A DNA stretch of 64,000 nucleotides from Halorientalis sp. IM1011 (GTDB lineage Archaea > Halobacteriota > Halobacteria > Halobacteriales > Haloarculaceae): assembly GCF_001989615.1 (NCBI RefSeq), contig NZ_CP019067.1, forward strand, positions 1,984,001-2,048,000, given 5' to 3'. Both the position numbers and the translations under genes were made by a program. The notes beneath the pieces were generated by a model. The model saw nothing but the letters and a program-made list of their open reading frames with translations, was not told the origin of the DNA and searched no databases. Of the stretch, positions 10,668 to 46,031 are shown piece by piece (within the stretch, counting starts at the first letter, position 1; each line of letters begins with the position of its first letter).

Positions 10668-11792
10668 GTGTCAAACGACGATCCGTTCCGGCTGGCCCTG
10701 CAGGTGCCCGTCGCCGGGACGGCGCTGTTGGTCGCCGCTGCCGGTGGCCTCCTCGGCGGTTCGCTCGCGCCCCTGGTTCGGATCGAGGGGCTGGAGGCGA
10801 TGATCGTCCCGCTCATGCTGACTTTCTACGTCATGACCGGTTTTCTCTTCACCTTCGGTGCGATGGCGGCGTCGCAGATATCGGGGGAAACCACTGAGGA
10901 GCGCGGCCGCGACGTCGCCGACTCCGAAACTGAGTGGGGGCGCGTTGCGACCGCGCTGGCGGGGACTGCCGTCGGATCCGCCGTCGGTGGGAGGCTGGTG
11001 TTCGGCGTCCCGGACTGGCTTTCCACGACGCTACCGCTCGTCGCGCTGTTCGCGGCGGCCGTCGCGTTCGTCCTCGCCGGCGACGCGGTGCCGATTCGCG
11101 GTCTCGACACGGCGTTGCGGAGCGCCGGCGGGACGATCTATCTGTTCGTGGTCCCAGCGGCGCTGTATCCGGTGTTCGACCTCGCCGGCCTCATGATTGC
11201 TGCGGTGGTCGGAGCCGCGTCCTTCCTCGTGGCTCGTCGCTGGGTGCGCGGCGGGATGCCGATCGATCGCCGCATCTCGGTCGCGGTCGCGCTCGTCTTC
11301 GCACTCGTCGCCGGCGGCGTGATGGCTCACGACCTGTCCGGCCCGCAGCCGACCGTCGAACTCCATACCGACCCGACGGTGAACCTCTCGACCCCCGAGG
11401 AGCGGTTTTACTCCTGGAGCGATACCGGGCAGAACCGGTCGATGGTCCGCGTCGGGACGGTCACGGCTCGCAACGAGTTCGACTTCGGGCGAACCGCCGC
11501 CCTCCCGGCGTACGCGGCGTGTCTCTACGGACCGAACGGGACGCGTCCGGCCCCGGACCGAGTCGCCGCACCGGTCGTCGAGACCGACGGGTGGGTCAGC
11601 GCCGTCGAGGAGGTACGACTCGTCGACGACGGGAGTCGACGGTTCAGCGTCGTCGTCTTTCTCGATGGGTTCGACGAGCGCTCGAACGACGAAATCCGTA
11701 ACTGGGGGACCGTTCCGGTCCGACGGGCTAATAGCTGTCCCGAGACCACCGACGGGCCGGCGCTGGTACTGGTTCCCGCCGACGAAAACTGA
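10668..11792 (+). CDS. Multi-pass membrane protein with extracytoplasmic C-terminal domain (paralog 2)
   Basis: This 374-residue paralog of the protein at 8576 has the same topology: about seven membrane segments, then VMAHDLSGPQPTV and a soluble beta-rich domain with YAACLYG and ANSCPETTDGP. It also starts with GTG, preceded by the similar box GGCTTATTC at 10636-10644. Divergence is greatest in the first extramembrane loop and in the C-terminal domain centre. The stop codon abuts that of lipA on the other strand (TGATCA). Function is unknown. Confidence 0.85.
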   Translation: MSNDDPFRLALQVPVAGTALLVAAAGGLLGGSLAPLVRIEGLEAMIVPLMLTFYVMTGFLFTFGAMAASQISGETTEERGRDVADSETEWGRVATALAGTAVGSAVGGRLVFGVPDWLSTTLPLVALFAAAVAFVLAGDAVPIRGLDTALRSAGGTIYLFVVPAALYPVFDLAGLMIAAVVGAASFLVARRWVRGGMPIDRRISVAVALVFALVAGGVMAHDLSGPQPTVELHTDPTVNLSTPEERFYSWSDTGQNRSMVRVGTVTARNEFDFGRTAALPAYAACLYGPNGTRPAPDRVAAPVVETDGWVSAVEEVRLVDDGSRRFSVVVFLDGFDERSNDEIRNWGTVPVRRANSCPETTDGPALVLVPADEN

Positions 11793-34685: not shown

Positions 34686-34761
34686 GCCAAGGTGGCAGAG
34701 TCTGGTATAACGCGTCCGCCTGCAGAGCGGATCGCCGCCGGTTCAAATCCGGCCCTTGGCT
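34686..34761 (+). tRNA. tRNA-Cys (GCA)
   Basis: The acceptor GCCAAGG pairs with CCTTGGC. Anticodon stem TCCGC/GCGGA encloses loop CTGCAGA (anticodon GCA), and the T-arm is GCCGG-TTCAAAT-CCGGC. No intron and no encoded CCA. A TATA-like GCTTAAACG lies about 30 bases upstream. Its 3' half is repeated twice more downstream. Confidence 0.95.
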
Positions 34762-34994
34762 TCTATGTCGCGAACAGTCCGTGAGCAGCAGGAACTGGAC
34801 CGGTTTGAACCCTGGAAGGCGCGCGCAGCGCGAGCGAGCACGTCTTCCTCCGGTTCAAATCCGGCCCTTGGCTTCTATGTCGCGAACAACCCGTGAGCGA
34901 CCAGAACCATCGGTCGTGATTTGAATCAGGGAGCGGCTTTGCCGCGACCGTGGTTCAAATCCGGCCCTTGGCTTCTGTGACCAACTCGTGAGCG
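34738..34994 (+). repeat. Three tandem copies of the tRNA-Cys 3' end with flank
   Basis: The segment from the T-arm through the 3' end and ~25 bases of flank (to CGTGAGC) occurs at 34738-34786, 34850-34898 and 34952-34994 (copies 2 and 3 diverged). Before each extra copy there is an inverted T-arm-like motif: GGTTTGAACC at 34802-34811 and GATTTGAATC at 34918-34927. A short GC palindrome lies between motif and copy (GGCGCGCGCAGCGCG and GCGGCTTTGCCGC). The stretch from 34762 to 35059 has no gene. It looks like remnants of repeated integration at an att site within the tRNA, or a T-arm-bounded small element. Confidence 0.85.
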
Positions 34995-45387: not shown

Positions 45388-45919
45388 ATGCTCCACCTTC
45401 TCGGTGACCTCCGTAAAGTCCCCGGTCTCGCTCGCCCCGGTTTCGGAACGCCGCTCGCGAGTCACAGAAGCAGGCCGGGAGAGTTGAACCGGAGCCAGAG
45501 GGTCCTGCTCGTCGCTTCGCTCCTGCGCGGGCTGCCACTGGCAGGGTTCAATCCCTTCCTGCCGGTTCACTCGACGGATCGCGGCATGCGCCGCTCACCG
45601 TCTCGTTGCACGGGCCGGGAGGGAGTTGAACCACGCGCAGACGTGCTCGCCACGCTGGCGCGACTGCTCTAGTTCAACACCCTCCGGCAGCGTTCACCAG
45701 CGGCTCGCGGGTTGCGAGCCGCAGGATTTCTCCGAAAATCTCCGATTTTCGGGATGACGAGAGAGCTACGCTCTCTCGAACCACACGGGCCGGGAGGGAG
45801 TTGAACCGGAGCCAGAGGGTCCTGCTCGTCGCTTCGCTCCTGCGCGGGCTGCCACTGGCAGGGTTCAATCCCTCCCGTTCGCAATGCTGTCGCTCACGAG
45901 ATGTTCGCGACAGCAATAG
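45388..45919 (-). repeat. Decayed tandem copies of the tRNA-Lys 3' end with interspersed hairpins
   Basis: There is no gene here. The T-arm/acceptor 3' segment of tRNA-Lys recurs in the same orientation at 45787-45807 (exact over 21 bases), 45612-45632 (exact) and 45472-45490 (two bases missing). Two copies open an ~84-base unit (45477-45559 and 45792-45876) that ends in an inverted T-arm-like motif (GGTTCAATCCC). The ~68 bases inside are almost identical in both. Between units lie hairpins at 45701-45721, 45733-45751, 45758-45778 and 45884-45914. The layout parallels the tRNA-Cys array. Confidence 0.85.
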
Positions 45920-46031
45920 CGGGCCGGGAGGGAGTTGAACCCCCGACCATCTGGTCACTTCCGAACCCGCCCGAATCGAACGCGCGGACTCGTTAAAAGC
46001 CAGACGCTCTGCCTAACTGAGCTACCGGCCC
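45920..46031 (-). tRNA. tRNA-Lys (TTT) with a 38-nt intron
   Basis: On the minus strand: acceptor GGGCCGG / CCGGCCC with discriminator G, D-arm TAGCTCAGTTAGGCAGAGC, anticodon stem TCTGG / CCAGA, loop CTTTTAA. The loop is interrupted after position 37 by about 38 nt (plus-strand 45956-45993), the canonical archaeal intron site. The mature length would be 74 nt. Splicing would need the EndA encoded at 16793. Exact splice points are inferred from the mature cloverleaf. Confidence 0.88.

Follow-up and report, generated by a model that had tools for sequence, protein, structure and literature searches.

The repeat arrays analyzed here are nearest, by architecture, to REPINs and BIMEs, which are bacterial doublets of REP sequences associated with RAYT proteins (PMC3116915, PMC2817692). 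Like these, the haloarchaeal arrays consist of short hairpin doublets that do not code for proteins and in which inverted arms enclose a spacer, form tandem clusters of alternating orientation, and probably spread within a genome as non-autonomous elements. The inverted arm copies that flank the spacer of a REPIN and form a hairpin have a counterpart in the order inverted T-arm, module, T-arm, and covariation and folding agree with the pairing. However, the arms of the haloarchaeal arrays are copies of the T-arm of the host tRNA and change with the tRNA, the units are all located at tRNA 3' ends, and the host is an archaeon. The arrays also do not require a transposase of the Y1/RAYT type, since 19 genomes free of Y1_Tnp all contain arrays. 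As the link to Y1 and the dispersed location both fail, the arrays were not filed as REPINs; they may work in a similar way.

Two archaeal integration systems and one bacterial repeat share further features with the arrays. In att duplications produced by archaeal tyrosine recombinases (PMC8371274), the tRNA 3' end is likewise duplicated from within or near the T-loop and the tRNA remains functional. In contrast to these duplications, array units are around 100 bp long, carry conserved palindromic modules and enclose no element between the copies, and true att duplications in the genome under study have boundaries that differ from those of the units. Casposons of family 2 (PMC6614799) resemble the arrays in their tRNA 3' end target, the TCAAATC motif of the T-loop and the presence of target-site duplications. 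However, the arrays lack casposon genes and long terminal inverted repeats, and Cas1 is absent from the genome under study and from most of the array-bearing genomes sampled. Downstream of tyrT in E. coli, a single locus in enterobacteria, the rtT repeats are also arranged in tandem, and each contains a copy of the tRNA 3' end. Unlike the arrays, rtT repeats are not known to possess an inverted arm or modules common to different tRNA genes.

The array downstream of tRNA-Lys

The window, i.e., the whole stretch of 64 kb that was analyzed (G000:C1:1984001-2048000, where G000 is the label of its own genome), contains a tRNA-Lys gene followed by three tandem units, which run in the direction of the tRNA (Table 1). 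The DNA is that of a haloarchaeon, and for a protein encoded beside the tRNA the nearest named genomes were those of Halorientalis species. Since tRNA-Lys is encoded on the minus strand, the array lies downstream of the gene and has to be read on this strand. Each unit consists of a hairpin (hairpin 1), an inverted T-arm, a palindromic module of around 40 to 60 nt and a copy of the last ~20 nt of the tRNA, which starts in the T-loop. The stem of hairpin 1 is variable and its loop is often close to GAACAA-YCGTGA. Direct and inverted T-arms alternate along the array, with two kinds of palindrome between them. In its default mode, ARAGORN missed the tRNA-Lys gene because of its intron; with introns allowed, one tRNA was fused to a downstream tail copy. 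Tail copies confuse tRNA finders and may pass for provirus att sites.

Units 1 and 3 contain a type A module, for which R1 is the covariance model, and the middle unit 2 contains a different one. The original prediction of two near-identical units is confirmed by the 79-nt stretches 45481-45559 and 45798-45876, which are 99% identical, and the inverted T-arm motif and the hairpins with short loops are both present. It had further described three decayed copies of the tRNA-Lys tail; the number was correct, but only copy 3 is decayed. The same design is present at a second tRNA of the window, tRNA-Cys, which is followed by two units. In the whole 64-kb window, the only places with direct repeats (16 nt or longer, within 30 to 320 bp) are those beside tRNA-Lys and tRNA-Cys; the tRNA-Lys array is therefore not a product of chance.

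Table 1. Features of the tRNA-Lys and tRNA-Cys arrays (positions in the window).
Feature	Position	Strand	Remark
tRNA-Lys gene with intron	45920..46031	(-)	Rfam RF00005, 57.6 bits, 112 nt
tRNA-Lys tail TTCAACTCCCTCCCGGCCCG, T-loop to discriminator	45920..45939	(-)	the repeated sequence
Unit 1, hairpin 1	45885..45915	(-)	TGCTGTCGC-GAACATCTCGTGA-GCGACAGCA
Unit 1, inverted T-arm	45864..45875	(-)	GGAGGGATTGAA
Unit 1, module, type A (CCCTGCCAG...CTGGCTCCGG)	45806..45863	(-)	R1 match G000:2029798-2029871
Tail copy 1	45786..45805	(-)	20/20 identical to tRNA-Lys
Unit 2, inverted T-arm	45673..45684	(-)	GAGGGTGTTGAA
Unit 2, module, C/D type (CTAGAGCAGTCGCG...GCGTGG)	45631..45672	(-)	weak R1 match
Tail copy 2	45611..45630	(-)	20/20 identical to tRNA-Lys
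Unit 3, inverted T-arm	45547..45559	(-)	GGAAGGGATTGAA
Unit 3, module, type A	45489..45546	(-)	identical to unit 1 module
Tail copy 3	45471..45488	(-)	decayed (TTCAACTCTCCCGGCCTG)
tRNA-Cys	34686..34761	(+)	
tRNA-Cys unit 1, type A module	34762..34873	(+)	tail copy 34854-34873, 20/20
tRNA-Cys unit 2, type B module	34874..34973	(+)	tail copy 34954-34973, 20/20

Linkage of the units to tRNA genes

A downstream copy of the own 20-nt tail (at least 15/20 positions, within 600 nt) was found for 26 of the 45 isolated tRNAs of the genome, compared with 6% of the pairings when the tails of other tRNAs were searched in the same stretches. Perfect copies (20/20) follow 13 of the 45 tRNAs versus 1 of 1866 cross-pairings, and around 40% of the tRNAs have no unit. 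Within an array, tail copies are better preserved next to the tRNA than at the far end (12 arrays versus 2). R1 matches 27 places in the genome, 25 of which adjoin a tRNA of the Rfam list; one further place is located next to a tRNA-Pro that was missed by the Rfam scan, and one lies 12.8 kb from its tRNA, with an integrated element in between. As all 27 matches trace to a tRNA, the units are tied to tRNA genes, and a dispersal through extragenic space was not observed; apart from the unit displaced by the integrated element, none was found away from a tRNA. The original prediction had spoken of a general process rather than an accident, which is borne out by the units at most tRNAs of this genome and by their presence in the majority of the Halobacteria genomes described below. 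The unit was compared with plasmid and phage collections as a possible insertion-sequence end or phage or plasmid repeat, and had no match. In a scan with the Rfam covariance models, only tRNA reached the gathering score, all other matches being weak and below the threshold.

A second repeated element (CCCACTTTTT... GC-rich hairpins ...AAAAACGTGGG) was observed near tRNAs and sometimes within arrays (L010, L093, L307, L313, L315 and others), e.g., downstream of the tRNAs at 10907, 1307679 and 1883418 of the same genome. An identical second copy of the tRNA at 10907 and of the following 700 nt is located towards the opposite end of the contig (G000:C1:9407-12480 and 3371137-3374210; L010, L011), either because the ends of a circular contig overlap in the assembly or because the region is truly duplicated. 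Elsewhere in the genome, 31 tRNA genes are clustered within 7 kb on one strand (G000:C1:2239000-2246000; L040). This cluster recalls virus-borne tRNA arrays; a comparison with phage records retrieved none that is close, the best having 3% coverage.

Distribution and variation in Halobacteria

The pattern GATTTGAA-N28..58-GGTTCAAATC was found in 165 of 194 Halobacteria genomes, and the reversed control gave no match. With both T-loop variants, 50 of 53 Halobacteria matched, compared with 5 of 242 archaea from the rest of the phylum; the motif is nearly confined to Halobacteria. G014, G018 and G021 are Halobacteria genomes without a match to the pattern; G014 contains ten matches to Y1 transposases, mostly broken, and two cas1 genes. 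The tRNA-Lys locus was fetched from 58 named genomes, and the tRNA was readable in 38 of them. One to three tail copies are present in 25 of these 38 genomes and none, at the threshold used, in the remaining 13. The number of units and the type of module vary between related species, and the tail copies track the tail of each species' own tRNA, nearly all with 16-19 of 19 positions. The module families are conserved throughout the class. No description of these arrays was found in the full text of open papers, searched with narrow terms, or in Rfam. The arrays form a family of modular, palindromic repeats that is anchored at tRNA genes, is found class-wide and is apparently undescribed.

Some tandem units are identical (Leu units 1 and 3; L114), as expected from tandem duplication. 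At L063 and L069, the whole tRNA-Asp gene is duplicated in tandem together with an array unit. A clean single unit is located at an intron-containing tRNA-Gln (L207; G109:C1:464526-464584), where the duplicated stretch of 31 nt extends from the T-loop to ~10 nt beyond the tRNA. This locus is a good candidate for a recent insertion.

Proposed copying of cassettes between tRNA genes

The strongest evidence on the unit of copying points to the cassette that lies between two T-arm halves. In the genome under study, the best pairs of modules from different tRNA loci are 90-93% identical, and the hairpins that adjoin shared modules are at background level (identity 0.55 vs 0.52). In another genome, G007, tRNA-Pro(TGG) and tRNA-Ser(TGA) lie ~600 kb apart and have a block of 58 nt (GGATTTGAA...TTCAAATCC) in common without a single difference; the identity stops exactly where the T-stems of the two tRNAs diverge. 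Different tRNA genes share the cassette delimited by GGATTTGAA and TTCAAATCC, with hairpin 1 and the tail being local. Furthermore, at tRNA-Lys, one and the same combination of hairpin and inverted arm is linked to a different module depending on the species of Halorientalis. Shared modules, the G007 block, the local surroundings and the module swaps at tRNA-Lys all argue for the cassette as the copying unit. The original prediction had proposed a unit with terminal inverted repeats; a cassette of this kind (inverted T-arm, module, T-arm) does appear to move, but not the whole 84-base unit.

The copying could be achieved either by transposition or by short-homology gene conversion. Neither an intermediate of transposition nor an enzyme nor a clean pair of empty and occupied alleles was seen, which counts against mobility, and non-allelic gene conversion together with selection could mimic it. 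At 38 of 38 loci of the genus, the type A module lies on the same strand as its tRNA; this single orientation argues against freely reversible recombination at inverted sites and leaves room for a directional role. Free inversion of modules was dropped as an explanation, the sole inverted type A module seen being that of L073.

Judged from these sequences, the arrays may well represent a non-autonomous, T-arm-anchored mosaic repeat of Halobacteria that spreads among tRNA 3' ends through DNA recombination, a reading that is held with middling confidence. In the proposed mechanism, the cassette would be copied from one tRNA 3' end to another by a recombination reaction that ends in the T-loop sequence. 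Its arrival would duplicate the tail, thereby leaving the tRNA intact. The arrays would then grow by tandem duplication and shrink by direct-repeat deletion between the tails of ~20 nt, and an inverted arm that pairs with the tail would be corrected towards the host tRNA. In favor of this reading, the inverted arm matches its own tRNA at 10.2 of 14 positions, compared with 9.2 of 14 for shuffled tRNAs (0 of 5000 permutations); this match is only moderate (2.2 vs 1.6 of 5 T-stem positions), which was counted against the reading. A benefit to the host need not be assumed.

Alternatively, the tRNA loci could be passive hotspots of recombination, in which an old repeat with neither dedicated mobility nor a function is continually reshaped by tandem duplication, by gene conversion among tRNA loci and by the correction of quasi-palindromes. 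The identical tandem units mentioned above would be explained in this way, as would the perfect pairing of the stems without G-U, and repeat-mediated deletion has been documented in the haloarchaeon Haloquadratum (PMC3119063). However, the arms shared by the G007 block comprise only 9 nt on each side, which is short for ordinary homologous recombination. The correction of palindromes would also erase the T-T mismatch, which is retained in 23 of 32 type A sequences, and the conserved, non-paired CCCT/TCC internal loop, and passive reshaping does not fit the conservation of the module families throughout the class. This explanation is thus considered rather unlikely.

DNA or RNA hairpins

Compensatory changes in stem P2 of the type A module affect four pairs, at which 15, 18, 6 and 3 of ~32 sequences are changed on both sides. 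The structure as a whole scores 0.241 for covariation, whereas shuffled and slid versions score 0.079 and at most 0.059, respectively. The cells of stem P1 were mostly fixed by the search pattern, and its covariation is therefore not independent evidence. The covariation is strong, as would be expected if the units formed a structured RNA trailer, which is transcribed together with the tRNA and acts in termination, 3' processing or regulation, with the inverted arm pairing with the tail or a downstream copy in an attenuator-like manner. The fixed orientation of the arrays fits this idea, and so does the folding of the array as RNA (z -5.1 vs shuffled sequence), where the minimum-energy structure has the inverted arm paired with the tail of the tRNA itself. 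However, folding as DNA is about as significant on both strands (z -4.8 and -4.3). G-U wobbles, which were expected as a mark of RNA, are absent from the covarying columns: six columns of P2 comprise 185 Watson-Crick cells, zero G-U and zero A-C. Hairpin 1, with 33 G-T vs 27 A-C, has no excess of G-U either. As G-U pairs are usually far commoner than A-C in structured RNAs, a DNA hairpin is the better guess, and the stems are probably recognized at the DNA level, as single-stranded or cruciform hairpins, rather than as RNA. An RNA trailer is also difficult to reconcile with the large fraction of unit-free tRNAs, with the gain and loss of units at the same tRNA between species and with the lack of a match to any Rfam family. 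It is therefore regarded as unlikely; in view of the fixed orientation, the arrays may still have an RNA role or another directional role.

Integrases, Cas1 and other candidate enzymes

The units could also be decayed scars of ordinary integrative elements such as proviruses and plasmids whose att site is the 3' end of a tRNA. The 3' ends of tRNA genes, including the T stem-loop, are indeed common integration targets in archaea (PMC8371274), and the tail copies begin in the T-loop. However, a real integration in the same genome differs in its boundaries: a 12.8-kb element with an integrase-like ORF (PF02899) lies between the tRNA at 2906501 and the displaced unit (G000:C1:2893400-2906700; L200) and has an 18-bp core, CCTGCAGCGCCCATCTTG, at both ends. 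Scars of this kind would neither share conserved modules nor carry inverted arms, and matches to integrases of PF00589 adjoin only two isolated tRNAs, both of which have no units. Serial att scars were rejected because of these boundaries and contents, and they are a very improbable source of the arrays.

An equally improbable source is an integration by Cas1, i.e., by a casposase or by off-target CRISPR adaptation, which would recognize a motif of the T-loop that lies upstream of the point of insertion. In its tRNA target, the casposase of A. boonei recognizes TCAAATC, and target-site duplications are left behind (PMC6614799). The arrays have a CRISPR-like polarity, and the duplicated target lies next to a TCAAATC motif, with the 20/20 tail copies starting at TTCAAATC or variants of it. 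However, Cas1 is missing in G000, arrays are present in 34 of the 36 sampled Halobacteria without Cas1, in which the number of arrays is no different (p 0.48), and the modules are conserved families and not spacers. Cas1-type integration is thus disfavored as the current mechanism; it may have had a part in an ancient origin. Y1_Tnp is absent from 19 of the 53 compared Halobacteria, and 14 of the 53 genomes have neither Cas1 nor Y1 and still contain arrays. Casposases, CRISPR adaptation and an IS200-like transposase are therefore not needed now, and casposase and Y1 transposase were rejected as current drivers, the number of arrays being unassociated with either. Haloarchaeal CRISPR repeats also have a TTGAA-like end; a CRISPR-like origin was nevertheless rejected, since the presumed spacers are conserved modules and G000 lacks Cas1.

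The favored reading, i.e., the copying of cassettes by DNA recombination, would most likely involve either tyrosine recombinases or the machinery of general recombination. Tyrosine recombinases are the best remaining candidates, since they are present in the genome and those of archaea are known to use the T stem-loop of tRNA genes (PMC8371274); general recombination is the alternative. A bolder version, which is put forward tentatively, is that the arrays constitute a distinct class of miniature mobile DNA in Halobacteria with the T-arm of the host tRNA as terminal repeats. Here, a dedicated putative recombinase would cut the T-loop, copy hairpin cassettes between tRNA 3' ends and duplicate the tail on arrival, and most tRNA genes would in this way come to have polar, CRISPR-like arrays. 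Most sampled Halobacteria contain the motif, and in the genome under study arrays adjoin the majority of the isolated tRNA genes. At the tRNA 3' end, a favored landing site of archaeal mobile elements, short DNA would also be copied from one gene to another, unrelated one. The arrays offer a route to study T-loop-directed recombination, the survival of tRNA genes upon insertion and perhaps the origin of tRNA-targeting integrases.

Carriage of the units by viruses or plasmids was discarded, the unit being without a match in the plasmid and phage collections. A scan of viral contigs yielded 80 motif matches, the GC-rich ones of which are unrelated sequences or a different, perfect palindrome in prophage-like contigs. 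In the IMG/VR contigs L250, L265, L280, L283, L295 and L302, near-perfect inverted repeats of ~22 bp are found (e.g., GATTTGAACCGTGGACCTCTGG ... CCAGAGGTCCACGGTTCAAATC), which are an inverted tRNA T-arm palindrome of another kind.
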